A stretch of DNA of 35,535 nucleotides from Filomicrobium sp. Lineage in GTDB: Bacteria > Pseudomonadota > Alphaproteobacteria > Rhizobiales > Hyphomicrobiaceae. Shown here piece after piece: positions 1 to 25,325 of this stretch. Numbering within the stretch: position 1 is the first letter of the stretch; every line of letters begins with the position of its first letter. The position numbers and the translations under genes are program-made. Where the stretch lies: the NCBI GenBank assembly GCA_029287535.1, contig JARFQY010000157.1, forward strand, positions 1 through 35,535, read 5' to 3'. The notes beneath the pieces are model-generated. The model made no database searches. It was not told where the DNA came from and was given only the letters and a program-made list of their open reading frames with translations.

Positions 1-35
1 GAATGTCAGGCATGGCCGGCAAGACAAAGAAGTAA
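1..35 (+). CDS. 3' end of an upstream methionine-rich secreted protein (partial)
   Basis: Reading from base 3 the frame gives MSGMAGKTKK and then a TAA stop. This closely resembles the end of the next gene (MSGMSGDKKK, stop). The window therefore starts inside the last codons of a tandem paralogue of the Met/Gly/Ser-repeat protein. Only the tail is visible, so length and signal peptide cannot be judged. A chance match is possible because the piece is so short, but the shared MSGM...KK ending and the adjacency make a tandem duplication the better reading. Confidence 0.6.
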   Translation, partial: MSGMAGKTKK

Positions 36-132
36 GAGGGCAAGCGAAGCCCCGGCGCAAAAGCGCCTAGAGCGAAAGCCGTCGAGCAGCGGCGCCCGGC
101 GGCACACTCAACACAGTGGAGAAAAACAAATC

Positions 133-423
133 ATGGCTATGAGACGCAAACTGATCATCACGGCCTGTGCACTCGCTCTTTGCGCGGGCGCGGCCTACGC
201 GGGCGACAAGCAAAAGGGCATGAGTGGCATGTCCGGCCAGAAGGGTATGAGCGGGATGGGCGGAATGTCCGGCATGTCCGGTCAGGAAGGCATGAGTGGC
301 ATGGGCGGAATGTCCGGTCAGAAGGGCATGTCCGGCCAGAAAGGCATGAGCGGAATGGGTGGAATGTCCGGTCAGAAGGGCATGGGCGGAATGTCCGGTA
401 TGTCCGGTGACAAGAAGAAGTAA
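133..423 (+). CDS. secreted methionine-rich MSG/MGG repeat protein
   Basis: The 96-residue product has a clear signal peptide (basic MAMRRK, a hydrophobic core, AYA cleavage near residue 23). The mature chain of about 73 residues is built almost entirely from three units: MSG, MGG and MSGQKG. It holds 16 methionines (about 22 percent) and no cysteine, ending in DKKK. The DNA is correspondingly repetitive with a nine-base period. The start has a GGAG-like site about 12 bases upstream. No enzymatic domain is visible. Proteins this rich in exposed Met are known either as metal (copper/silver) binders or as oxidant sinks, for example the MrpX peptide that works with a methionine sulfoxide reductase in Azospira. 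Its position before a DMSO-reductase-type operon favours the second idea, but this is inference. Confidence 0.8.
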   Translation: MAMRRKLIITACALALCAGAAYAGDKQKGMSGMSGQKGMSGMGGMSGMSGQEGMSGMGGMSGQKGMSGQKGMSGMGGMSGQKGMGGMSGMSGDKKK

Positions 424-470
424 CCGGGGAACGGGCACAAAGCCCTTTACGCCCATCACAACTCTATCCG

Positions 471-492
471 GGAAGGCCTTTCCAGGCCTTCC
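471..492 (+). terminator. perfect 8-bp hairpin between Met-rich gene and cytochrome gene
   Basis: GGAAGGCC, loop TTTCCA, GGCCTTCC forms a perfect stem of eight pairs with a six-base loop. It lies 48 bases after the Met-rich stop and 33 bases before the cytochrome start. There is no T-run behind it, so it is not a classical intrinsic terminator. It could be a partial terminator, or an mRNA-stabilising element that makes the short Met-rich message more abundant than the enzyme message. Confidence 0.4.
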
Positions 493-525
493 TGTAAGTC
501 ACCTGGATCAACAGGGGCACGCGTC

Positions 526-1989
526 ATGAGAACAGTCGCCAAATTCGCTATCGCATGCGTCGCCGCGATAGCTGCCATCTTCGCAATTTCAGCGCTCACA
601 GGCTTTTTCACGCACGGTCCGATTCCAAACGAGGCGGCTCAGCTTCAAATCGAACAACCATCGACCGAAGCCACGGAGCCTGAACAAGCCAAAGCCGTGG
701 CGACTACGCAGCCAGTGCAACCCGCGGACACCACAGTCCATCCCCCCAAGCAGGACGCACCTGCTGGAGCAATCAACATCGCTGCGGGCAAGAAACTATT
801 CAGAAAGTGCAAGGCGTGCCACTCGGCCACAAAGGACGGCAAGAACAAGGCCGGTCCTAATCTATGGAACACCGTCAATCACCCAATCGCATCAAGCGAA
901 GGGTTCAAGTATTCGCCCGCGATGGCTGGGCTCAACTCCGAGACATGGACTCCAGAGAAGCTCGACGCCTTTCTGCTTTCGCCCAAAGGCGTCGTGAAAA
1001 AGACAAAGATGTCGTTTGCCGGGATCAAGAAGCAGGCCGATCGCAACAACCTGATTGCCTGGCTCGCCCAGCAGGCTGATGAGCCGATTTCTCCCGAAGC
1101 CCTTGGTCTAGCGACTGCCGGCGGAGGGGCTGCCGTCGCTGCTGCCGAAGGGCAAACCGAAGAAGAAGAAGAGCAAACGGTCGTTTACCGCGATCCTCCC
1201 CCGGCGACGCAAGCCGAACTTACCGAAATCGCCCGGCGGGTCGGCGAGCTGGAAAAAAGCTTGCCCGATCTCGACTACGAACGCGCTCGTTGGCATCCGA
1301 TTCACTTTAAGCCGGCCATTAGCAAGGCCAGTGATGCTGAATGCCTGACCTGTCACGCGAAGGTCCTGGAACGCAAGCCTCTGGATGTCGCCCCCGCGGG
1401 TATCAAGGCCAAGGATGCGCTAGCGTGGTACCAGACGCTCGATACCTATCACGGCGACCAGCAGACATTCCATTATCGACATATCGAGAGCCCCTTCGCG
1501 AAGCAGGTCATGAACCTGAAGTGCAACTTCTGCCATCAAGGCAACGACCCGCGCGAAGAAAGCCCCGGCGACGTGACCCGCGGCGATGGACAAGACGGAG
1601 CCTTCGCTCTCCGCAAAATGGTCAATCCAACACAGACCTGCCTGCGCTGTCATGGCCAGTACGATTACGAGCTGATGGGCACCGGCCCTTGGCCCGAGTA
1701 TCGCACCGATGTCGAAGACGAGGAAACGCCCAACGGCTGCTTGAGCTGCCATGGCGAGGCCTTCCGCACCAACCGGCACGCCGTCACTTACCTGAAGGCG
1801 GCATCCATCGAAGAGGCCGCGAAGACCTCCTCCGACACTTGTTACGGATGCCACGGCGGCCGCGCGTGGTACCGCAACACCTATCCATACCCGCGCAATC
1901 CATTTCCAGGCATGGATGAAGAAATACCTGTTTGGGCGAAAGACCGGCCGACTCAGTCCGAGGAACAATACCGTTTGAGCACCAAGTGA
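526..1989 (+). CDS. membrane-anchored hexahaem cytochrome c
   Basis: The 487-residue protein starts with an uncleaved-looking signal anchor (residues 5-28), then a Pro/Ala/Gln-rich linker. A class I cytochrome c domain follows, with CKACH at 95-99 and a likely axial Met in MSFAG near 162. After an acidic linker (EEEEE near 212) comes a five-haem module with CLTCH 273-277, CNFCH 333-337, CLRCH 372-376, CLSCH 405-409 and CYGCH 439-443. All six haem sites are intact. The protein should sit in the periplasm, tethered to the inner membrane. It lies 17 bases before the molybdoenzyme gene, so it is probably that enzyme's electron-transfer partner, standing in for the absent DmsC anchor. Whether electrons flow to or from the molybdoenzyme cannot be read from sequence. 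I do not recognise a named family for the whole fusion. Confidence 0.9.
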   Translation: MRTVAKFAIACVAAIAAIFAISALTGFFTHGPIPNEAAQLQIEQPSTEATEPEQAKAVATTQPVQPADTTVHPPKQDAPAGAINIAAGKKLFRKCKACHSATKDGKNKAGPNLWNTVNHPIASSEGFKYSPAMAGLNSETWTPEKLDAFLLSPKGVVKKTKMSFAGIKKQADRNNLIAWLAQQADEPISPEALGLATAGGGAAVAAAEGQTEEEEEQTVVYRDPPPATQAELTEIARRVGELEKSLPDLDYERARWHPIHFKPAISKASDAECLTCHAKVLERKPLDVAPAGIKAKDALAWYQTLDTYHGDQQTFHYRHIESPFAKQVMNLKCNFCHQGNDPREESPGDVTRGDGQDGAFALRKMVNPTQTCLRCHGQYDYELMGTGPWPEYRTDVEDEETPNGCLSCHGEAFRTNRHAVTYLKAASIEEAAKTSSDTCYGCHGGRAWYRNTYPYPRNPFPGMDEEIPVWAKDRPTQSEEQYRLSTK

Positions 1990-2006
1990 GCCGCAAGGAG
2001 AGCAGA

Positions 2007-4574
2007 ATGTTGAAGGACTATGTGCTACGCGAGCACTTGAACCGTGCGCTCAACACAAACCGGCGCTCCTTCCTGAAGGGAGCCGCGATTACAGCTGCGT
2101 CGGGATTGGTCACCACAGGCAAGAGCGAAAAAGCCCAGGCCTTTGCCTATCAGCCCTATCCCACCGACGACGAACTCGAGACGGTGGTCACCAGCTGCGC
2201 ACACAACTGCGGCTCGCGCCACGCTCTGATCGCTCACAAGAAGGGTGACGTCATCGTCCGGCTCTCAGCAGACGACGGCACCTACCAGCGCGATGGCTAC
2301 TTCGGCAAGGACACCGAGGAAGAGCCTCAGGTCCGCGCCTGCCTTCGCGGACGCTCCTACAGGGCCCGGCTCTACTCGGCAGAGCGGCTCCTCTATCCCA
2401 TGAAGCGCGTCGGCAAGCGCGGCGAGGCCAAGTTCAAACGCGTGTCATGGGACGAAGCCCTGACCGACATCACCCGCCGCATGGTCTATCTCAAGGACAA
2501 GTATGGGCCCACGGCGTTGCTCGACCAATCCTATGCGGGTGCCTCCTATGGCGTCCTACACAAATCCGATCAGATCGAAGGGCTTCTTGGACGCTTCCTC
2601 GGCATGTTTGGATGCCGCACATCGAGTTGGTCCGTGCCCTCTTATCAGGGCACAACGTTCTCCTCACGCATGACCTTCGGCACCATCGAGGATGGCAACG
2701 AAGATGATGCGTTCGCCCACACCAAATTGATGATCATGTGGGGCTGGAACCCCGCCTATACGTTCCACGGCGGCAACACGTTCTACTATATGCGCCTCGC
2801 CAAACAGCGTGGCTGCAAGTTCGTGTTGGTCGATCCACAATACACCGACTCCGCATCCGCCTACGACGCCTGGTGGATACCCATCAGGCCAAACACCGAT
2901 GCCGCGATGATGGCCGGCATGGCCCATTACATCTTCGACAACAATCTCCACGATCAGGAGTACATCAACCGCTTCGTGCAAGGCATGGACGCCGGAACCA
3001 TGCCCGATTGGGCCAAGGACCGTGAGAATTTCCGCGACTACATCTTCGGGACCTACGACGGCCAGCCGAAGACACCGGAATGGGCTTCCGAGATCTGCGG
3101 CGTCTCCGCTGACGACATCAAAAAGCTGGCGCGGATGTTCGCGGAAACCAAACCAGCCGCACTCAAAGCTTCGTGGGCCCCGGGGCGCAATGCATACGGC
3201 GAGCAGTATAACCGAATGGCCGCCGCTCTCCAGGCGATGACGGCCAACATCGGAATCCTCGGCGGCTCGGCGGAAGGCGTCGGCAAGGCCTGGCACGCCG
3301 AGGCGGTGGCCTATCCCTACGACCATTTTGCCAATGTCTGGTATTCGTCAATCAAGTCAGACCGCTGGGCCCACATCGTGCTGAATTATCCCAATGTCAA
3401 GCGCGAGGAGGCCGGCCTTTGGCCGCGCGGAGATAACCTGGACGGCATGATCCCGAACATTCGAGGCATCTTCTGGCAGGGCTCGGACTGGCTCAATCAG
3501 CTCACCAACATCAACAAGGAAATCGAAGCCATCAGGAAGCTGGAGGCCGAGGGCGACGAGGAAAGCCTCTTAGTGTGCATGGATTCCACCATCACGCCGA
3601 CTGGCATCTGGGCCGACTATCTGCTCCCCATAGCAACCCACTTCGAGCGCCATGACGTCGCCCTGCCCTGGTACAAGGGCCATTACTATATCCACCGCCC
3701 GAAGGTCATCGAGCCCATGGGCGAATCCAAGAGCGACTTCCAGGTCTTCACCGAACTCGCTTACCGCCTTGGATTTGGCGAGCGCTACAATCCCAAGGCC
3801 GACCGCTCCTACTTCGACAATGACGATCCCGTCGATGAGGCCTATTTGCGTGAATGGTGGGACACAAAGGTCATGCACCATCAGCACGTCGACATGAGCT
3901 GGGACGAATTCAAAAGCCACGGCATTTACAAATTCAAACTCAGCCAGCCACACGTCGCATTCCGCCAGCAGATCGAAAACGGTGTCCCCTTCCAGACGCC
4001 GTCAGGAAAGATCGAGATCTTCTCCAGCCAGCTTGGAACAATCACGGATTGGAAACGCACCCAATATGGCTACCCGATCCCTGCCATACCCAAATGGATC
4101 GAGCCCTGGGAGTACCTTGGCGCCAAAAAAGTCAGCGAATATCCCTTCCACCTCATCACGCCGCATCCCCGCTGGCGCACCCACTCGATCTTCAACAATA
4201 TTCCCTGGCTGCGCGAGACCTACGAACAAGAGGTCACCATCAACGCGTCTGATGCGAGAAAGCTCGGCATCAAGACTGGCGACACCTGTGAGATTTGGAA
4301 CGATCGCGGCATGATCGTGTTGCCGGCCTATGTCACGGAACGGCTCATGCCGGGAGTGATCGTCGTGCACGAGGGGTCGTGGATGGACATTGACGAAGAG
4401 GGCGTTGATCTGTCCGGCAACCCCGATTTCCTGACTCTCGACGAACCAAGTCCGGCGGGCGCCTTTGCCTACAACACCATACTCGCAGATATCCGCAAGT
4501 CCGACCGCATTCATAAACCAGGCTGGGATCGCATCGCCACCGCGCGCTCCCACGTTTTCAGAAGAGACCTTTGA
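2007..4574 (+). CDS. DMSO-reductase-family molybdopterin oxidoreductase, DmsA-like catalytic subunit
   Basis: I start at the ATG at 2007, which has AAGGAG six bases upstream; a longer in-frame start would run into the cytochrome gene. The 855-residue product has a Tat signal (NRRSFLKG, twin Arg 19-20), so it is exported folded. The Fe-S site reads C64-x3-C68-x3-H72-x39-C112: the usual third cysteine is histidine. The text after C112 (LRGRS, then YPMKRVGKRGE) and the C-terminal domain (HSIFNNIPWLRE, INASDARKLGIKTGD, PSPAGAFAYNT) are typical of the DmsA branch with bis-MGD cofactor. The Mo ligand is probably a serine in the 213-220 region, but this is uncertain. The substrate is unknown; DMSO, other S- or N-oxides, methionine sulfoxide or an oxyanion are all possible. 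It is encoded with its DmsB-like partner and its TorD-type chaperone. Confidence 0.9.
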   Translation: MLKDYVLREHLNRALNTNRRSFLKGAAITAASGLVTTGKSEKAQAFAYQPYPTDDELETVVTSCAHNCGSRHALIAHKKGDVIVRLSADDGTYQRDGYFGKDTEEEPQVRACLRGRSYRARLYSAERLLYPMKRVGKRGEAKFKRVSWDEALTDITRRMVYLKDKYGPTALLDQSYAGASYGVLHKSDQIEGLLGRFLGMFGCRTSSWSVPSYQGTTFSSRMTFGTIEDGNEDDAFAHTKLMIMWGWNPAYTFHGGNTFYYMRLAKQRGCKFVLVDPQYTDSASAYDAWWIPIRPNTDAAMMAGMAHYIFDNNLHDQEYINRFVQGMDAGTMPDWAKDRENFRDYIFGTYDGQPKTPEWASEICGVSADDIKKLARMFAETKPAALKASWAPGRNAYGEQYNRMAAALQAMTANIGILGGSAEGVGKAWHAEAVAYPYDHFANVWYSSIKSDRWAHIVLNYPNVKREEAGLWPRGDNLDGMIPNIRGIFWQGSDWLNQLTNINKEIEAIRKLEAEGDEESLLVCMDSTITPTGIWADYLLPIATHFERHDVALPWYKGHYYIHRPKVIEPMGESKSDFQVFTELAYRLGFGERYNPKADRSYFDNDDPVDEAYLREWWDTKVMHHQHVDMSWDEFKSHGIYKFKLSQPHVAFRQQIENGVPFQTPSGKIEIFSSQLGTITDWKRTQYGYPIPAIPKWIEPWEYLGAKKVSEYPFHLITPHPRWRTHSIFNNIPWLRETYEQEVTINASDARKLGIKTGDTCEIWNDRGMIVLPAYVTERLMPGVIVVHEGSWMDIDEEGVDLSGNPDFLTLDEPSPAGAFAYNTILADIRKSDRIHKPGWDRIATARSHVFRRDL

Positions 4575-4589
4575 CAGAGAGCACTTGCT

Positions 4590-5276
4590 ATGGCCAAACC
4601 TGACATCGACAAGGCCAAGATCAAGGCCGCCGTCAAGCGTGTGAAGCGTGAGGTTTACGTTCCCGTGGTGCCCGATGAACAAATCGGTTTCGTGCACCAC
4701 AACGTCGACTGCATCGGATGTCGCGCTTGCGAAATCGCCTGCAAGGACAAGAACGGCCTTGGGCCGGGGCCCCGCTTTCGTCGCGTGCAGTACATCGAGG
4801 GCGGGACCTACCCCGAGGTCTACGCCTACAAGGTCAACATGTCCTGCAACCATTGCGCCGAACCGGCCTGCCTACCGGCCTGTCCGACCGGCGCGATCTT
4901 CAAGCGCAAAAAGGACGGCATCGTCGACATCGATTCAACACTCTGCATTGGCTGCCGTCGCTGCGAAGCGACCTGCCCGTACGGCGCTCCACAGTTCGAC
5001 CCCTCGGACGGCCTCGTCAAGAAATGCAACATGTGCGTCGACGAGATCGACGCCGGACGCAAGCCCTATTGCGTCATGGCCTGCATGATGCGGGTCCTCG
5101 ATATCGGACCCATAGAAAAAATCTGGTCCGGCGAAGCTATCGATGTGATGGGAGAAAAGTCGAAAGCGGTGGGTGCGAACGAAACTGTTGTGCGCAAAGT
5201 CAAAAACATGGCCGACCCGGAACTCACCAAACCTTCGATTGCATTCATCCCCCACTCGAAGGGGACCGTGAAATGA
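4590..5276 (+). CDS. DmsB-like four-cluster [4Fe-4S] ferredoxin subunit
   Basis: The 228-residue protein has four cysteine groups: CIGCRACEIAC near 41-51, CNHCAEPACLPAC near 86-98, CIGCRRCEATC near 119-129, and CNMC...CVMAC near 148-168. These supply 16 ligands for four [4Fe-4S] clusters, as in DmsB, PhsB and NrfC. There is no signal peptide, which fits co-export with the Tat-bearing catalytic subunit. It passes electrons between the molybdenum subunit and, here, presumably the hexahaem cytochrome. A basic N-terminal extension (about 30 residues rich in Lys) precedes the first group. The gene begins 15 bases after the catalytic gene and overlaps the chaperone gene by ATGA. Confidence 0.9.
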   Translation: MAKPDIDKAKIKAAVKRVKREVYVPVVPDEQIGFVHHNVDCIGCRACEIACKDKNGLGPGPRFRRVQYIEGGTYPEVYAYKVNMSCNHCAEPACLPACPTGAIFKRKKDGIVDIDSTLCIGCRRCEATCPYGAPQFDPSDGLVKKCNMCVDEIDAGRKPYCVMACMMRVLDIGPIEKIWSGEAIDVMGEKSKAVGANETVVRKVKNMADPELTKPSIAFIPHSKGTVK

Positions 5277-6025
5277 AACCTGAAGAGACCGATCTGAAGC
5301 CGGCCGCGGAAATGGTCATGCTCGCCGACGCCATCAGCGAGGACTTCGCCTTGCTGGCCGCGCTCCATGACCATGAACCAACCGCGCAAATGCTGACGGC
5401 GTTGCGCTCGACCAAAGCGGCAGACTGGTTTGGCGCGCGACTCGACCCAGCCGTCACGGATGCACTGGATGCCGCTCTTGCAGCCCTTCCCCGTCCCCTG
5501 ACTGAGGCCGCGCTCGACTCGTTGGCCGCCGACTACGCCGACATCTACTTTGTCAGCACCTATGAGGCCGCACCCGTCGAGTCCTACTGGCTCGACGACG
5601 AGAACCTCGTCTGCCAGGACGCCATGTTCAACGTCCGCGGCTGGCAAGCACTCTATGGGATGCAGGCGGAAGACTGGCGTCGGCGAGCCGACGACCATCT
5701 TGTGTTGCAGTTACTCTTCTTATCCCATCTAGCCGGCTTTAAAACAGAGATCGCGTTACGTGATGCTGCCCGTTTTCTTGATCGGCACCTGCTGCTCTGG
5801 ATTGGCGATTTTGCCGATCGCATTGACCAACGCGCGCGCGAACCATGGTTCCGTGCGCTCGCCGTCGCCACGGCAGCCCACGCGCAAACGACGCGCGACC
5901 TGCTGCAGACCGTACTTGACGAACCACGCTGGCATCCTCCTGAAATTGAAACGCCGAAGGCGCCAGACCTTTGCCAACTCAAAGACGCCATGAAGTTCAT
6001 CCCGGGCACCGGACCAGGGTGGTAG
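5273..6025 (+). CDS. TorD/DmsD-family molybdoenzyme chaperone
   Basis: The start is the ATG at 5273, which overlaps the TGA of the DmsB-like gene (ATGA), so translation is probably coupled. The 250-residue, all-helical product has family features: the segment DYADIYFVSTYEAAPVESYW, then the NVRGWQALYGM helix, then FLDRHLLLWIGDFADRI. It is cytoplasmic, without a signal. Proteins of this family bind the Tat signal and the apo-catalytic subunit, hold it until bis-MGD insertion and then release it to the Tat translocase. The client is almost certainly the DmsA-like protein two genes upstream. The conserved C-terminal tail (LKDAMKFIPGTGPGW) overlaps the start region of the next gene. Confidence 0.85.
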   Translation: MKPEETDLKPAAEMVMLADAISEDFALLAALHDHEPTAQMLTALRSTKAADWFGARLDPAVTDALDAALAALPRPLTEAALDSLAADYADIYFVSTYEAAPVESYWLDDENLVCQDAMFNVRGWQALYGMQAEDWRRRADDHLVLQLLFLSHLAGFKTEIALRDAARFLDRHLLLWIGDFADRIDQRAREPWFRALAVATAAHAQTTRDLLQTVLDEPRWHPPEIETPKAPDLCQLKDAMKFIPGTGPGW

Positions 6026-7020
6026 CGGCCCCTGGTACCCTGCCGGAAATCAACCCAGACCGATGCGTTCACGGGTTATTCGCGTCGGCCACCTGCGAAG
6101 CGTGCGCAACCGCCTGCCCACGCCGCGCATTGCACGTCTCGGATGAGGGCCTCGGCCTCCTCGAAGAAAACTGTGACGGCTGCGGTTTGTGCGAGCCCGC
6201 CTGCCCGCAGGCCGCGATAAGTGTCATCGCCGCACCCGAGCTACGCGACACGGGGGCGGGACTGGCCCTGTTCATTGGCTGTGACGTGACCAACACGGGG
6301 CCAGGCTGCGCCGACCGCATCGGACTGCGCACCCTCGCGGAAGCCTGGCGCAAAGACGTCAGACAACTGATCATCGCCGAAGCGCCGTGCACAACATGCC
6401 CGCGCCGCGGCGCCAAAACGCTCGAAGAAAATTTCAAGACCTTGAACGCCCTGCTGGCCAGCAGGGGCTCCCCCCCGATGCGGTTGCGCCGCCTCGAGCC
6501 ACGAGAATGGCACGCTGCGTTTGAAAACTCCCGCCTCCCCGCGTCGGGTTTGAGCCGCCGCCAACTCTTCCGCCGGGTCACAAAACCGGCACAATACCGG
6601 CCCGTCGAGGATCCGGCGCACGTTTTTCTGCCGGATGCCGGCGACCGGCGCCTGTACGCCACCGTGCCGGTCATTGCTGCCGAGGCCTGCATCGCCTGCG
6701 GCGCCTGCGTGCGCGTGTGTCCCCATGAGGCGCTGTTGGATACCGAAACAAGTTATTCCGTTCGGCCGGAACGTTGCGTCGGTTGCGGACTGTGCGTGGA
6801 TGCGTGCGCCTCCAATGCCGTTGTCATCAAAACAATGACATCGTCGCCGCCAGACCTGCCACTCACGAATAACAAGTGCCCCGCATGCGGCGCCCCATTC
6901 CGGCAGCCAACGGGCCAGACGCGCAACACACATCTTTGCACGATCTGTGAGCAAACGAACCACACCCGAAAACTGTTTCAAGTGTTGGAGGGCCCTGACA
7001 ATGACACCAGCGACCGCTAA
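6019..7020 (+). CDS. multi-cluster 4Fe-4S ferredoxin with C-terminal zinc-ribbon-like motif
   Basis: The product is about 333 residues if it starts at GTG 6019, which overlaps the chaperone stop. An ATG at 5971 in the same frame would add 16 residues that merely re-read the conserved chaperone tail, so I prefer the GTG. Cysteine groups in order: CEACATACP (with a Cys ten residues earlier), CDGCGLCEPACP, a lone CTTC in a middle domain, CIACGACVRVCP, CVGCGLCVDAC, then CPAC...CTIC resembling a rubredoxin-like or zinc ribbon pair. No signal peptide is seen, so it is likely cytoplasmic. Similar polyferredoxins (NapF-like) accompany molybdoenzyme operons and are thought to serve maturation or electron supply. 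The exact role here is unknown. Confidence 0.75.
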   Translation: MVAAPGTLPEINPDRCVHGLFASATCEACATACPRRALHVSDEGLGLLEENCDGCGLCEPACPQAAISVIAAPELRDTGAGLALFIGCDVTNTGPGCADRIGLRTLAEAWRKDVRQLIIAEAPCTTCPRRGAKTLEENFKTLNALLASRGSPPMRLRRLEPREWHAAFENSRLPASGLSRRQLFRRVTKPAQYRPVEDPAHVFLPDAGDRRLYATVPVIAAEACIACGACVRVCPHEALLDTETSYSVRPERCVGCGLCVDACASNAVVIKTMTSSPPDLPLTNNKCPACGAPFRQPTGQTRNTHLCTICEQTNHTRKLFQVLEGPDNDTSDR

Positions 7021-7450
7021 CTGGATTTCCCCACTTACTGCCGCGATCAACGCCAACGGTCGCCACGGCGGATACGTCGTTAGCATGTCCGAGTACCGGC
7101 CCACATTGATCCATGTCGTCGCCAAAGAGTGCGGTCTTGTGCTACGCGATTTTCGAGCCGAGATCTTGAAACCAAAGGGCTGGGAGGCATCCACGACACC
7201 CTTGTCAGAACTTGACGACTACATTGGCAATGGCGGCGGCATGATCATGAACGCCGAAGCATTGCTGGCGACCAAGAACAGCGGCGAGCGCGCCGCCTGG
7301 CTGGAGCGGTTTGTCATGAGTGATGGCCCCTTGGCCATGGTTCCGCTCGTGGTGTTTTCAGACGACATCGCGCCAGGCCCCCGCTCGGTGATTCTGGATT
7401 CTGCTGCGCTTCCCGAAGAGACCCTATTATCGCGACTGATGGAAATGTAA
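7001..7450 (+). CDS. unknown protein of the molybdoenzyme operon
   Basis: I start at ATG 7001, preceded by GGAGG about ten bases upstream; an in-frame start at 6947 lies deep in the ferredoxin gene. The 149-residue product has no signal peptide, membrane helix or cysteine-rich motif; its one cysteine is in the segment KECGLVLRDF. It starts inside the last 20 bases of the ferredoxin gene and precedes the sensor kinase by 56 bases, so it is translated as part of the operon. I do not recognise the family. The placement suggests an accessory role in maturation or regulation of the molybdoenzyme. Confidence 0.7.
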   Translation: MTPATANWISPLTAAINANGRHGGYVVSMSEYRPTLIHVVAKECGLVLRDFRAEILKPKGWEASTTPLSELDDYIGNGGGMIMNAEALLATKNSGERAAWLERFVMSDGPLAMVPLVVFSDDIAPGPRSVILDSAALPEETLLSRLMEM

Positions 7451-19958: not shown

Positions 19959-20942
19959 TCAAAGGCCGAGTAGGACAGCACCGCCATTCAACCCGGCTCC
20001 CGCTGCACACAGTAACACGCGATCGCCGGTCTGAAAGCCACGCTCGTCAGACAAAATAGACATCGTAAACGGAATTGTTGCCGCCGAGCTGTTTCCGTAA
20101 GCGCAAACGGTTGAACATACAGACACTTCTCGGATCCCCAGGTTCCTGCGCACGGCCTCGATAATGCGCACATTGGCCTGATGAGGCACGAAGTGTGTTA
20201 CCTCCGCCGCATGCAGCCCGGCATTTGCCAAAGCTGCACGCGACGTATCTGACATCATTGCGATGGCCCGCTGGAAAACTGCGCGGCCATCTGACATGCA
20301 CATCAACACATCCTCGGAAGCCAGCTCTGTTCCGTAGGGAACCGCACTGCCGCCCGCTGCAATCTTGATGAGATCGTAACCGCTGCCATCGCATCTGACA
20401 TCGGCGCCGATCACACCCGCGCCAGTCCGCTGTGACGGCCCGATCAGCATCGCCCCCGCGGCATCCGCGAATAGCACGGCGCTCGCTGTCTCCTTCGGAT
20501 TGATCCGCCGCGATAGAATATTGGCGGCGATCACCAGCACATTCTTCTGATGCACCCGCACAAACGCATCGGCCAACGTCAACGCATAGAGGAACCCGGC
20601 GCATGCCCCGGCTATATCAATTCCTCCGGCCCCCGCCAGGCCAAGCCGGTGCGCTACAAGCGGAGCCGTTGGTGGCAGCAGATGGTCGGGCGTTGACGTC
20701 GCCAACAGTATAAGTCCCACGGAAGCCCGCGAAACCTTCGCGCGTGATAGGGCCATTTCCCCGGCGGCTATGGCCAGATCCGACAGGCGCTCTTCCTTGG
20801 CCGCCCAACGCCGTTCTGCAATACCTGTGCGGCTTTCGATCCACCCGGACTCGAGACCGAGCCGGTCTTCAATCTCACAGCTTTTGACCACACGCTCCGG
20901 CGCATAATGCCCAAGGCCGAGAACTTCCACGCCGCCGCTCAT
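19959..20942 (-). CDS. bioZ: BioZ, FabH-type 3-ketoacyl-ACP synthase for pimeloyl-ACP synthesis
   Basis: I start at ATG 20942, which overlaps the bioA stop (ATGA). The 327-residue product is a FabH-fold enzyme with the catalytic triad C114 (GACAG), H254 (VPHQAN) and N284 (AYGNSS). In alphaproteobacteria BioZ condenses a glutaryl thioester, derived from lysine breakdown, with malonyl-ACP, giving a ketopimeloyl thioester that the fatty-acid enzymes reduce to pimeloyl-ACP. That replaces BioC/BioH. Position as the last gene of a bioBFDA operon is the main reason to call BioZ rather than a housekeeping FabH. It supplies the substrate for BioF encoded upstream. Confidence 0.88.
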   Translation of the reverse strand: MSGGVEVLGLGHYAPERVVKSCEIEDRLGLESGWIESRTGIAERRWAAKEERLSDLAIAAGEMALSRAKVSRASVGLILLATSTPDHLLPPTAPLVAHRLGLAGAGGIDIAGACAGFLYALTLADAFVRVHQKNVLVIAANILSRRINPKETASAVLFADAAGAMLIGPSQRTGAGVIGADVRCDGSGYDLIKIAAGGSAVPYGTELASEDVLMCMSDGRAVFQRAIAMMSDTSRAALANAGLHAAEVTHFVPHQANVRIIEAVRRNLGIREVSVCSTVCAYGNSSAATIPFTMSILSDERGFQTGDRVLLCAAGAGLNGGAVLLGL

Positions 20943-22213
20943 GACCGCACCCCGGCCAAAACCCGTTCGACACCATTGACGAGGGCCGCGTACAGGACGT
21001 CCAGTTGATCCGACGTGATGCAATAGGGCGGCATCACGTAGACGGTATTGCCAAGTGGCCGCAGCAGCACGCCCCGGGCGATAAGCTCCTCATAGAGTGC
21101 TGGTCCGATTTGCGCCAGGTATCCTTGATCATCAACGTCAACATCAATCGCAGCGATGGTTCCTGTTCGCCGCGCGTTGCGGAACACGGTGTTTGCGCTA
21201 AGCCGCGCAACGTGCTGCTCCTGCATTTCACAAAGCGCCTGCACCCGCGCCAATACCGCCTCCTCTCGCCAGACCTCGATGTTGGCGACCGCTGCCGTGC
21301 AGGCGATCGGGTTCGCTGTGTAAGAAGAAGAATGATAGAAGGTCTTCGATCGATCCATTGAGTAGTGGGCATCAAAGATCCGTTCGGCGCACAACGTGGC
21401 CGCAAGCGGCAGATGTCCGCCGGTAATGCCTTTGGCGAGGCAGAGGATATCAGGGACAATACCCGCCTGCTCGCAGGCAAACAGCGTCCCGGTACGGCCC
21501 CAGCCCGTCATCACCTCATCGGCGATCAACAGCACATCATACTGATCGCAGATGCGCCGCAGTTGAGCCAGTGTCGCAGCCGGCCACATTAACATCCCCC
21601 CGGCACCGAGAACCAGCGGCTCAACGATCAACGCGGCCACGCCTCCCGCCCGACACACCGCCTCGAAGGCATCGAGCGTCGCCTGTTCCCGACCTTCTTC
21701 CGGAAACGGCAATCGCTTCACATCGAACAGTAACGGCTCGTAAGCTGCATTGAACACGCCGCGCGCACCGGCCGACATCGTCCCGATCGTATCGCCGTGG
21801 TAAGCATGCTCGAGTGCCACGATATGTGGACGTGGCGAACCGATGTTGCGCCAATATCCAAGCGCCATCTTCAAAGCGACTTCGACAGCGGTCGATCCGG
21901 AATCCGAATAAAACACACGCGTCAGCGGCTCTGGCGTCAACGCGACAAGCGCCTCCGCAAGCCGCTCCGCGGGCTCATGCGTAAAACCCGCGAAGATCAC
22001 CTGGTCGAGCCGCTCGGCCTGCTCCTTGACCGCTGCGACAATGCGCGGATGGCAATGACCATGTGTAACAACCCACCAAGATGAGATCGCATCCAGGATG
22101 AGGCGTCCATCAATAGTCTCAAGATAGGCGCCTGAGGCGCGCGCGACAGCGATCGCCTCCGGAGCAATTGCGTGCTGCGTGAAGGGATGCCAGACCGGCG
22201 ACTTGGAGGTCAT
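20939..22213 (-). CDS. bioA: adenosylmethionine-8-amino-7-oxononanoate aminotransferase
   Basis: The 424-residue class III PLP aminotransferase has WHPFTQH at the N-terminus, DAISSWWVVTHGHCHP, SDSGSTAVEVALKMA, the PLP-phosphate and ring contacts (ALEHAYHGDTIG, LIADEVMTGWGRTG) and the Schiff-base lysine in LAKGITGGHLPL. These are BioA signatures (the WW pair and HGH). It converts KAPA to DAPA with S-adenosylmethionine as amino donor. It starts with an ATGA overlap to bioD and ends with one to bioZ, so the operon is tightly coupled. Confidence 0.96.
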   Translation of the reverse strand: MTSKSPVWHPFTQHAIAPEAIAVARASGAYLETIDGRLILDAISSWWVVTHGHCHPRIVAAVKEQAERLDQVIFAGFTHEPAERLAEALVALTPEPLTRVFYSDSGSTAVEVALKMALGYWRNIGSPRPHIVALEHAYHGDTIGTMSAGARGVFNAAYEPLLFDVKRLPFPEEGREQATLDAFEAVCRAGGVAALIVEPLVLGAGGMLMWPAATLAQLRRICDQYDVLLIADEVMTGWGRTGTLFACEQAGIVPDILCLAKGITGGHLPLAATLCAERIFDAHYSMDRSKTFYHSSSYTANPIACTAAVANIEVWREEAVLARVQALCEMQEQHVARLSANTVFRNARRTGTIAAIDVDVDDQGYLAQIGPALYEELIARGVLLRPLGNTVYVMPPYCITSDQLDVLYAALVNGVERVLAGVRS

Positions 22214-22842
22214 TGGAAATCCTCCAGATCAAAGTTCGCGGCAAACGCGCCCGCGACAGCCGCCGGCGTCAGCGGATCGACAAACGGCAACCGGCCGAGG
22301 CGGCGAACCCCGCCAAATGCTGTGATCACCTCTTCGCTGTCGGGCACGGCATCACCGACAAACACCACCCCGGAAACTTCGATCCCTCGGTTGCGAAGTG
22401 CCTCCAGCGATATGAGGCAATGATTAATCGTCCCAAGCGATGTGCGCGCCACCAGGATAACCGGCAAACACCACTTTGCCACAACGTCAATTTGTAGAAC
22501 CGTTCGTGTGATCGGCACCAGCAAACCACCGGCCAGCTCAATGACGAGAGGTCTCTCGTCCGCCGGCGGGGTCAATCGCTTTATGTCGATGTCGACCTCG
22601 TCCCGCTCGGCGGCAAAGTGGGGCGAAGCTGGTGTTCGCAGCCGGTAGGCCTCCGTGAGAATTCGGTGCGGCGGCACACCACCGATGCTGGCGACGACTT
22701 TGCTGTCCGTCGGTTCGGCCATACCGGCCTGTATCGGTTTCCAGTAGCTGGCCGCGAGGGCTTGTGTAAGCGCCGCGGCGAAAACCGTCTTGCCGACCCC
22801 GGTATCGGTGCCGGCAATGACAAATGCTTGCCGTCCGCTCAT
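22210..22842 (-). CDS. bioD: dethiobiotin synthetase
   Basis: The 210-residue ATPase carries the P-loop AGTDTGVGKT at about residues 10-19, the substrate-contact segment WKPIQAGMAEPTDS, and the ELAGGLLVPI segment. It closes the ureido ring of dethiobiotin from DAPA, CO2 and ATP. LVARTSLGTINHCLISLEAL is the usual downstream family motif. It overlaps bioF and bioA by four bases each. Length is near the usual 220-230. Confidence 0.95.
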   Translation of the reverse strand: MSGRQAFVIAGTDTGVGKTVFAAALTQALAASYWKPIQAGMAEPTDSKVVASIGGVPPHRILTEAYRLRTPASPHFAAERDEVDIDIKRLTPPADERPLVIELAGGLLVPITRTVLQIDVVAKWCLPVILVARTSLGTINHCLISLEALRNRGIEVSGVVFVGDAVPDSEEVITAFGGVRRLGRLPFVDPLTPAAVAGAFAANFDLEDFQ

Positions 22843-24011
22843 GAGCGCATCAGCTCCTGCTCTTCGGCGAGCGCATCAACGAATTCCAGGAGCGCACCTT
22901 CCGGCGTATTCAACGTCAGGGACATCCTGAGCCGCGCCGTCCCCTCCGGAACCGTTGGAGGACGAATTGCCCGAATGTCAAAACCACGTTTTTGCAGACC
23001 CTCGGCAAGTTCCAGCGCACGCGCATCGCGACCGACCACGATCGGCTGAATATGCGTCCCTGTAGGCTCGAAGCCGCATTTCTTGGTCAACGCCGCGCCA
23101 ACGCGTCCAACGCGCCGCCGCAGCTCGTCTCGACGTTCTCGCCCAATGTCCTCGTCGCTGAGAATGCGTAACAGCGCCAAACGCACCGCTTCGGCCATCA
23201 AAGGTGACGGCGACGTGGTGTAGATGAACGGCCGGCAGCGGTTAACGAGGAAGTCGATTAGCACACGCGGCGCGCACAGCAGAGCCCCCATGAGCCCGAG
23301 CGCCTTGCCGCAAGTGTGCAGCGAAATGACATTGGGCCGCCCTTCGAGGTGGGCACCCAGCCCGCGGCCCTGCGGACCCAGAACCCCGGTCGCATGCGCT
23401 TCATCAATAACGACAATCCCGTCATGCCGGTCGGCTAACGCCGCAAGATCATCAAGCGGTGCCGCGTCCCCGTCCATACTGTACAGACTTTCAACAGCCA
23501 GCCACGGGCGGCCCGTTCCACCACGCCGCCGCCATTGCACGATCTCATCCTCGAATGCTGCGACATCGTTGTGAGCCGCGCCGGCGGACTCGGCACGCGA
23601 CAGCCGCATGCCGTCATGAACACTGGCATGAATAAGGGTATCGTACACGACGATGTCACCCCGCTGTGGCAGAGTCGAGAACACAGCCGCGTTGGCGAGG
23701 AACCCGCTACTGAAGTACAGCGACGCCTCAGCCCCAAATAGGTCTGCTGCTTCTTCTTCAAGCCGCGTGTGCGCGCGGTGATTGCCTCGCAACAGCCGCG
23801 AACCGCCCGAACCCATCGCCGCCCCGCTGGCCATCGCCTGCATGAATTCGTCGCGGAGTTCCGCTGAACCGGCAAGCCCGAGATAGTCGTTGGAAGACAA
23901 ATCCCAACCTTCGTTGTGCACGAGCCGCCTCAGGCGGTTCCGGCCAGCCAGAGCCGACAGGGAGCGCACGTGCGCCGGGTGATGTCGCGAGCTTTCATTT
24001 CGTTCGGTCAA
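22839..24011 (-). CDS. bioF: 8-amino-7-oxononanoate synthase
   Basis: The 390-residue alpha-oxoamine synthase shows SSNDYLGLAGS, GSGGSRLLRGNH, VIDEAHATGVLGPQGRG and the PLP lysine in HTCGKALGLMG. It condenses pimeloyl-ACP with alanine to give KAPA, the first committed ring-assembly step. It starts eleven bases after the bioB stop and overlaps bioD by ATGA. Confidence 0.95.
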   Translation of the reverse strand: MTERNESSRHHPAHVRSLSALAGRNRLRRLVHNEGWDLSSNDYLGLAGSAELRDEFMQAMASGAAMGSGGSRLLRGNHRAHTRLEEEAADLFGAEASLYFSSGFLANAAVFSTLPQRGDIVVYDTLIHASVHDGMRLSRAESAGAAHNDVAAFEDEIVQWRRRGGTGRPWLAVESLYSMDGDAAPLDDLAALADRHDGIVVIDEAHATGVLGPQGRGLGAHLEGRPNVISLHTCGKALGLMGALLCAPRVLIDFLVNRCRPFIYTTSPSPLMAEAVRLALLRILSDEDIGRERRDELRRRVGRVGAALTKKCGFEPTGTHIQPIVVGRDARALELAEGLQKRGFDIRAIRPPTVPEGTARLRMSLTLNTPEGALLEFVDALAEEQELMRS

Positions 24012-24022
24012 TCCGTGTCGTC

Positions 24023-25033
24023 CTAACCGCCGGCCTCGGCCTTGAGGCCGAGCTTCGCAAACAGCAAGTCATCCGCATCCTCGCCGGGGTTGTCAGCCGT
24101 TAGAAGCTGCTCACCGCAGAAGATGGAGTTGGCGCCGGCAAAAAAGCACCAAGCCTGAAGCTCATCGCTCATCTCACTGCGCCCGGCGGACAGCCGGACA
24201 TAGGATTTCGGCATCATGATGCGGGCCAGAGCTATGGCCCGCACGAATGCGATGCCGTCCACCTTCGCGGCACCTTCAAGCGGCGTCCCCTCGATTGCCA
24301 TCAGCATGTTGATGGGAACGCTGTCGGGATGTTCGGGAAGATTTGCAAGCGTGACCAGCATATCTATGCGGTCGGCATCAGTTTCGCCGAGGCCGAGAAT
24401 GCCGCCCGAGCAGACCTTGATGCCGGCCTCACGCACGCGCTCCAGGGTCTCAATACGGTCCGCGAACGTGCGCGTCGTAATAATCTCCGAATAATAGCGC
24501 TCGGACGTATCCACGTTGTGGTTGTAGTAATCGAGCCCCGCCGACCTCAGCTGCGCGACATCTTCATCCGTCAGCATGCCGAGCGTCATACATGTCTCAA
24601 GGCCCATCTCCTTGACTTCGCGCACCATGTCGAGGACGGCAGGCATGTCGCGCTGCTTCGGGCCGCGCCACGCCGCACCCATGCAGTAACGGGTCGCGCC
24701 ATTGGCCTTGGCCGCCCGCGCTCCTTCCAAGACCTCCTCCAGCGCCATCATCTTTGAGGCTTTGAGCCCCGTCTCGTAGCGTGAGGACTGACTGCAATAC
24801 GAACAGTCTTCCGGGCAGCCGCCAGTCTTGATCGACAACAGCTGGCATTTTTGGACGGTATTGGGATCAAAGCTGCTCCGATGCACGCATTGGGCGCGAA
24901 ACAACAGCTCGTTGAAGGGAAGGTCATAGATGCGCTGCGCCGCTTCGCGCGTCCAATCGTGGCGGATTCCGTCCCTCTCCACGCCCATATCACTGGCCGC
25001 GGTGACCGCTTCACGTGTTGGGTTATCCAGCAT
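24023..25033 (-). CDS. bioB: biotin synthase, radical SAM
   Basis: I start at ATG 25033, which follows AAGGAGG by ten bases; an upstream start at 25147 would add 38 unusual residues. The 336-residue enzyme has the radical SAM cluster C73-x3-C77-x2-C80. The ligands for the sacrificial [2Fe-2S] cluster are the cysteines in [19 protein letters not shown] and [10 protein letters not shown], plus the arginine in YVRLSAGR. It inserts sulfur into dethiobiotin. It is the first gene of bioBFDAZ. Upstream (RNA sense), TTGACC and TGTAGT sixteen bases apart, near 25150-25180, are a weak promoter candidate. I found no BioR-type TTATnnATAA site or BirA-type palindrome in the 292 bases before it. Confidence 0.96.
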
Positions 25034-25325
25034 CTGTCTGACGCCTCCTTCGGGTGTGCCCAGGATAATCGGCCCATCAATGAACCTAAGCCCGTCTCGC
25101 TGCAACGACCCCGTTCGTCGTAATGCGTCCTGAGCGGGTCGCCGCACACTACAAAGCTAGGTTATGCCGGGTCAACGGGCCCGGCTGGCGCCCTAAATCC
25201 ACAGGCCCATTGCGGAATCTTCCTGGGTCCGCACCGCTTCAGCAAGGCTTTCATCGACCATTTCGGCACTTGGGACATGATCATTGCCCCCGTCGTCAAA
25301 ACGAATTGGATCACCTCGTTCCGCG

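Follow-up and report, generated by a model that had tools for sequence, protein, structure and literature searches.

Among the closest described systems is one that couples an exported protein rich in methionine (Met) to a molybdenum enzyme which reduces methionine sulfoxide (MetO). MrpX of Azospira together with YedY is cited as such a Met-rich sink with a molybdenum reductase (PMC4623255, PMC8315932). Here, an operon is described in which an exported (Gly-Met-Xaa)n protein, MSG, stands upstream of a multihaem cytochrome (CYT) and a molybdoenzyme (MO) of the dimethyl sulfoxide (DMSO) reductase family. It lies at the start of contig JARFQY010000157.1 of Filomicrobium sp., which was analysed as one complete contig (35,535 nt, referred to as the window; contig C104 of genome G000, 4.5 Mb in 379 contigs). 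Judged from its genes, the locus would be a self-contained periplasmic Met-redox system, in which a Met-rich oxidant sink is recycled from MetO by MO as a molybdenum S-oxide reductase; this reading is held with moderate confidence.

As in MrpX/BcrX with YedYZ/MsrPQ (Azospira, Brucella), the gene of a putative exported Met-rich sink adjoins that of a candidate molybdenum MetO reductase, and dedicated regulators are present. BcrX, the MrpX homologue, is a MXKDX repeat protein, which is accompanied by the sulfite-oxidase-fold MsrP and an extracytoplasmic function (ECF) sigma factor. The present locus instead encodes (GMx)n repeats, an enzyme of the bis(molybdopterin guanine dinucleotide) (bis-MGD) type with an iron-sulfur (Fe-S) subunit and a pentahaem cytochrome, a haem-c kinase and a sigma-54 regulator. 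The likeness would be functional only, since neither component belongs to the corresponding family: the MXKDX model (MrpX/BcrX) was absent among the NCBIfam matches at E ≤ 0.1, and PF00174, the Oxidored_molyb fold of MsrP/YedY, was absent from MO.

Three DMSO-reductase-type systems are comparable on the enzyme side. DorA, the DMSO reductase of Rhodobacter sphaeroides, reduces protein-bound MetO (PMC7402097). Like MO, it is a periplasmic enzyme of this family with Ser at the molybdenum (Mo) ligand position and the Tyr of the SYGW motif. It differs in being a single subunit without Fe-S cluster, whereas MO combines an FS0 motif and SYAG with a DmsB-like partner. MO is about one third identical to the DorA-type group. 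In Haemophilus influenzae, the TorYZ/MtsZ system likewise comprises a periplasmic enzyme of the family fed by a pentahaem cytochrome, and MtsZ reduces MetO (PMC5122715). However, TorY is a NapC/TorC-type quinol dehydrogenase, which CYT is not, and MtsZ has no Met-rich partner. DmsABC/YnfEFGH share with the locus a DmsA-like catalytic subunit, a DmsB-like Fe-S subunit and a TorD/DmsD-type chaperone, whereas MO scores under the TIGR02166 cut-off, forms a separate clade, carries His for Cys in FS0 and lacks the quinol anchor DmsC. The (GGM)n tail of GroEL and the Met-rich low-complexity domain of yeast ataxin-2 (Pbp1) resemble MSG in their Gly-Met or Met-rich composition, but are not exported, have no such partner reductase and are much shorter or unrelated in sequence. 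The ataxin-2 domain is cited as redox-controlled via Met oxidation (in PMC7402097).

The Met-rich repeat protein

MSG of the window consists of the signal peptide MAMRRKLIITACALALCAGAAYA and a mature chain of 73 residues with 16 Met, all of which sit in GM[S/G]G units. A second MSG-repeat protein lies upstream; the contig end cuts it, and the tail MSGMAGKTKK is present. An earlier note on this DNA had described these two neighbouring repeat proteins, one as a tail, as well as the 16 Met ahead of a hexahaem cytochrome and a DmsA-like enzyme, and both descriptions hold.

Full-length MSG proteins (n = 35) have 94-379 amino acids (AA) and 14-104 Met each. Mature chains contain 38% Gly, about 27% Met (range 18-29%) and 17% Ser, with 1.7% Pro and about 0.1% His. 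The tracts are joined by short, conserved linkers, i.e., WVCTQW in Alphaproteobacteria and YFKITPQGQIFFYPAS in Gammaproteobacteria. Both TCN and AGY codons for Ser are used within the repeats of 33/35 proteins, and all four Gly codons occur. Hence, it is the protein sequence that has been kept, not a recent duplication of DNA, and the amino acid pattern is selected. A literature search for the MSG repeat, and for the combination of a Met-rich protein, a DMSO reductase and a pentahaem cytochrome, found no description among the papers searched, in line with the earlier note, whose author knew of none for the pairing.

Conservation and co-occurrence of MSG and MO

Close homologues of MO (88 sequences, 75-91% identity) were collected from Alpha- and Gammaproteobacteria, with hosts in Hyphomicrobiales, Rhodobacterales, Thiodiazotropha, Sedimenticola and Thiotrichales; MO of L032, near Filomicrobium, is 91% identical to that of the window. 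After removal of duplicates, 80 loci had readable DNA upstream of CYT. The MSG repeat was found directly upstream of CYT on the same strand in 77 of them. The earlier note had proposed to judge the pairing by how often a secreted Met-repeat gene adjoins close homologues of the molybdoenzyme, and the proposal withstood this comparison. The order CYT-MO-FES-TorD-ferredoxin (FES being the Fe-S subunit), with kinase and regulator nearby, is conserved among the close homologues in both classes. Given the mixed Ser and Gly codons and this conserved order, the locus is not due to chance. Distant homologues of MO (27-36% identity) had MSG in 0/21 cases within 1-1.5 kb on each side, and the other flanking DNA, 654 kb in all, contained no MSG-like open reading frame (ORF).

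The same association appears genome-wide. In the order sample (249 genomes; MSG matches with ≥ 60% identity and E < 1e-6), MSG was present in 9/9 genomes with close MO versus 1/240 without (P = 1e-15). In the lone exception, G062, MSG adjoins the WYTPF protein described below at the end of a contig. In the phylum sample (319 genomes), the counts were 5/5 versus 0/314. Because some genomes are in both samples and relatives are not independent data points, the P values serve as guides only.

A second version of the operon, which has diverged further, was seen in Thiodiazotropha (L206:9641-15565 and L234), with MO 71% identical and an MSG gene of its own; in L206, a gene for a Crp-type regulator lies between MSG and CYT of this copy. 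In Rhodobacter xanthinilyticus, the operon is borne by plasmid pEJ01 (L237, NZ_CP017782.1), where MSG and the WYTPF protein are annotated merely as hypothetical. As pEJ01 is typed as conjugative, horizontal spread of the operon is possible.

The molybdoenzyme

MO carries a twin-arginine translocation (Tat) signal and matches the DMSO reductase family (PF00384, 4e-39; PF01568, 2e-20). Its best PDB matches are DMSO and trimethylamine N-oxide reductases (DMSO reductase 1eu1, 8e-76). Against the DmsA/YnfE model TIGR02166 it reaches 597.6 bits, below the cut-off of 777.7, and it forms its own clade beside, but outside, DmsA/YnfE and TorA/BisC.

The Ser of the SVPSY motif, which was kept in 88/88 homologues, aligns with the Ser of GDYSS/GDYST in DmsA, BisC and TorA; by this alignment, MO would belong with the Ser-ligated S/N-oxide reductases. 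The DorA motif SYGW reads SYAG in nearly all homologues, so that Tyr is retained and the Trp expected of a DorA-type enzyme is absent. The FS0 motif is SCAHNCGSRH in 87/88 homologues and SCAHNCGARH in one; the third ligand is His in 88/88, hence the four Cys of DmsA are not found. For a DmsA-like enzyme, such a ligand set with His in place of the third FS0 Cys is unusual. MO probably represents an undescribed branch of the DMSO reductase family with features of S-oxide reductases (Ser, Tyr).

Cytochrome, promoter and regulators

The six CxxCH motifs of CYT are distributed over a class I c-550-like domain (one) and a C-terminal pentahaem domain (five). Five haem motifs were counted in 66 homologues and six in 19; the sixth haem lies in the fused c-550 domain, which resembles cytochrome c-552/cy. 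The NapC/TorC/TorY model PF03264 gave 17.4 bits, below its cut-off of 24.1. No gene for a DmsC-like membrane anchor was found in the operon of the window or among the recurrent gene clusters of the loci. The pentahaem domain and the WYTPF protein were modelled with AlphaFold, but with predicted local distance difference test (pLDDT) scores of 47 and 66, respectively, the models lacked the quality needed for fold searches.

The conserved order of the operon is sigma-54 promoter, WYTPF protein, MSG, pentahaem cytochrome, MO, Fe-S subunit, TorD, ferredoxin, haem-c kinase and NtrC-type regulator. A sigma-54 promoter match with at most 2 mismatches was present upstream in 20/36 loci with enough DNA, versus 0.64 expected and 0 on the reverse strand, mostly 430-560 nt ahead of MSG. 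Within the window, no such site exceeded chance; the promoter would fall upstream of the contig end. Between promoter and MSG, 36/37 loci encode the WYTPF protein, a secreted protein of about 100 AA with the motif FLEDQGxWYTPFxxPGMxGPYDIRGWH and no Pfam family. It is missing from the window because the contig starts too late. The WYTPF protein and MSG are therefore probably encoded at the start of the operon, which its own regulator would drive. In 49/50 homologues of the sensor kinase, the haem-c motif CxxCH is present.

MSG sequences and related functions elsewhere in the genomes

In 5/7 genomes of Thiodiazotropha, a second type of MSG gene is convergent with a gene for an exported MsrA or MsrAB. 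Operon-bearing genomes also have periplasmic proteins of other kinds with an attached MSG tract, namely a dihaem cytochrome c, a cytochrome c'-like protein, a methanol-dehydrogenase-like enzyme of the pyrroloquinoline quinone (PQQ) type and lipoproteins (Table 1). Four proteins of Thiodiazotropha (L230:7110-7907, L231:6660-7283, L232:1412-2215 and L233:6920-7672) combine a Gly/Tyr/Pro-rich half like that of sulfur-globule proteins with an MSG-type half.

No MsrP was found in the genome of the window, where the single PF00174 protein is SoxC beside SoxB. In this genome, soxB adjoins soxC (G000:C145:9039-11675), which makes thiosulfate oxidation by the host probable.

Gene layout of the window

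From MSG on, the intergenic gaps are 102, 17 and 15 nt (MSG-CYT-MO-FES), with overlaps thereafter, and a search between MSG and CYT of the window gave no terminator-like site. The gene unit extends past position 7450, where the interval first noted ended, to the haem-c kinase and the sigma-54 regulator. An antisense ORF across MSG (67-459) was attributed to the repeat and discarded as an artefact. At 20939-25147 on the minus strand, an apparent biotin biosynthesis cluster (bioB, bioF, bioD, bioA-like) was read by eye.

Table 1. Features of the operon in the window, and related sequences in other loci (locus:position).
Feature	Position	Strand	Basis or remark
C-terminal tail of upstream MSG-repeat protein, MSGMAGKTKK	1..35	+	stop at base 35, rest beyond contig end
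MSG, exported (Gly-Met-Xaa)n protein, 96 AA	133..423	+	ORF; repeat upstream of CYT in most loci
CYT, hydrophobic N-terminal anchor, class I cytochrome c-550-like domain and pentahaem domain, 6 CxxCH	526..1989	+	
MO, predicted Tat-exported bis-MGD oxidoreductase, DMSO reductase family	2007..4574	+	domain, profile and PDB matches; clade position
FS0 motif SCAHNCGSRH in MO, His at third ligand position instead of Cys	2193..2222	+	
FES, DmsB-like [4Fe-4S] electron-transfer subunit	4590..5276	+	TIGR02951 189 bits, cut-off 214
TorD/DmsD-type maturation chaperone	5273..6025	+	domain and profile matches
FD, polyferredoxin, no export signal seen	6019..7020	+	probable GTG start near 6019-6022
X, protein of about 121 AA, no family assigned	7085..7450	+	conserved in part of the loci
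Sensor histidine kinase, periplasmic haem-c motif CQVCH (residue 141), HAMP, PAS	7507..9363	+	
NtrC-type sigma-54-dependent response regulator	about 9347..10696	+	
WYTPF protein, examples	L093:4685-4993, L084:6678-6992, L037:5594-5905		and 33 further loci
MSG tract with dihaem cytochrome c	L143:9393-10562		
MSG tract with cytochrome c'-like protein	L161:374-1051		
MSG tract with PQQ methanol-dehydrogenase-like enzyme	L211:7664-9820		
MSG tract with lipoprotein	L142:9826-10333		also L036
MSG tract attached to periplasmic protein	L157:1-1123		

Proposed function and alternatives

We infer the following sequence of events. The exported, low-complexity MSG chains would hold tens of exposed Met, which periplasmic oxidants would convert to MetO. 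MO, the Fe-S subunit and the pentahaem cytochrome may then turn MetO in MSG back into Met, with electrons presumably drawn from the cytochrome c/quinol chain, and the haem-c sensor kinase and the sigma-54 regulator would turn the operon on in response to a suitable signal. A Met-rich exported protein at the operon start suggests a built-in, rechargeable oxidant sponge outside the cell membrane.

The earlier note had interpreted the locus as a Met sink with a molybdoenzyme by analogy to MrpX and MsrP. Adjacency, co-occurrence, the sigma-54 promoter together with a sigma-54 regulator, the high Met content of MSG and the Ser and Tyr of S-oxide reductases are consistent with this, as is the lack of MsrP in the genome of the window. 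DorA and MtsZ serve as precedents on the enzyme side, and the separate MSG genes of Thiodiazotropha support a sink independently of the operon because they adjoin exported MsrA/MsrAB; the families of MrpX and MsrP, in contrast, are not shared. Several observations weigh against the reading. The Trp of SYGW is missing in MO, as it is in DmsA, too. Oxidised calmodulin was not repaired by MtsZ (PMC5122715). In many Alphaproteobacteria, CYT carries a fused c-550 domain, which equally fits electron delivery to the cytochrome c pool, i.e., an oxidising enzyme. Three loci (L082, L084, L093) have MO without a normal MSG gene. The MSG and MsrA/MsrAB neighbours are not co-transcribed and are confined to one genus. 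Finally, MsrP was found in 22/41 operon-bearing genomes, so that MO is not simply a replacement of MsrP, and a general role of this kind was ruled out.

Two further readings concern MSG as a polymer. A bolder extension of the Met-redox system, which we regard as doubtful, is that the giant (Gly-Met-Xaa)n proteins and the MSG tracts on cytochromes and dehydrogenases would make up a Met-rich phase or polymer in the periplasm. A dedicated respiratory molybdenum reductase would set its Met/MetO state, which the haem-c kinase would sense; Met oxidation would then not be damage but a reversible form of redox storage with a link to the respiratory chain. Alternatively, MSG might be a polymer for structure or docking, either a condensate or a chain of the collagen-like or polyglycine-II-like kind, which organises cytochromes and MO at the envelope, while the substrate of MO is a small S- or N-oxide. 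The strict Gly-Met-Xaa periodicity fits such a scaffold, as do the tracts attached to periplasmic redox proteins (L143, L161, L211) and lipoproteins (L142, L036), and the collagen repeat model PF01391 is matched above its Pfam cut-off (29.5 versus 27.2 bits). The match is compositional, however: Pfam and PDB searches return collagen because Gly occupies every third residue, and a stable triple helix is unlikely since Pro is rare. Matches to collagen adhesins and phage tails were discarded as compositional as well. Furthermore, Ser, Gly or Pro could take the place of Met at each third residue of a scaffold, yet Met is kept at about 27% across two classes. A scaffold is unlikely.

An inorganic oxyanion (chlorate, bromate, iodate or selenate type) as the substrate of MO, with MSG absorbing reactive by-products and untouched by MO, is improbable. 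Many oxyanion reductases belong to the DMSO reductase family, the nearest NCBIfam models are DMSO and selenate reductases, and MrpX is cited as a precedent in perchlorate islands (PMC4623255). However, neither chlorite dismutase nor another halogen gene recurs in the conserved operon. Type II oxyanion enzymes have Asp at the Mo-ligand position, whereas MO has Ser.

There is also little likelihood that MO oxidises or reduces an inorganic or organic sulfur compound, with electrons passed to the c-550 domain and MSG as a sulfur-globule-like coat protein. SoxB over cut-off was present in 29/40 operon-bearing genomes plus G000 versus 86/249 in the order, the Thiodiazotropha proteins with MSG motifs (L230-L233) resemble sulfur-globule proteins, and genes annotated dmsAB are reported near a divergent soxY in lucinid symbionts, in a text that does not mention methionine (PMC11237559). 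SoxB is enriched, yet missing in 11/40 operon-bearing genomes, and a strict tie to Sox sulfur oxidation was therefore ruled out. The Mo ligand of Psr/Phs enzymes is Cys, unlike the Ser of MO, and Met is no known signature of sulfur globules. A periplasmic buffer for Cu(I) or another soft metal is very improbable: the MxxM ladder of MSG resembles the Met-rich Cu(I) sites of copper proteins, which have MxxM-like spacing, but mature chains hold hardly any His and no copper-handling gene recurs in the operon.

Significance

The operon occurs in dozens of bacteria, mostly marine and sulfur-oxidising. If MO recycles MSG, a widespread, undescribed branch of the DMSO reductase family would gain a protein substrate encoded in the same operon, and MO would be the first enzyme of this family known with such a substrate. 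Since the two genes are so tightly paired, one enzyme and one peptide would suffice for a direct test. The strategy of a Met-rich sink, described for perchlorate reducers and Brucella, would then reach many mostly marine, sulfur-oxidising bacteria, including symbionts of animals.

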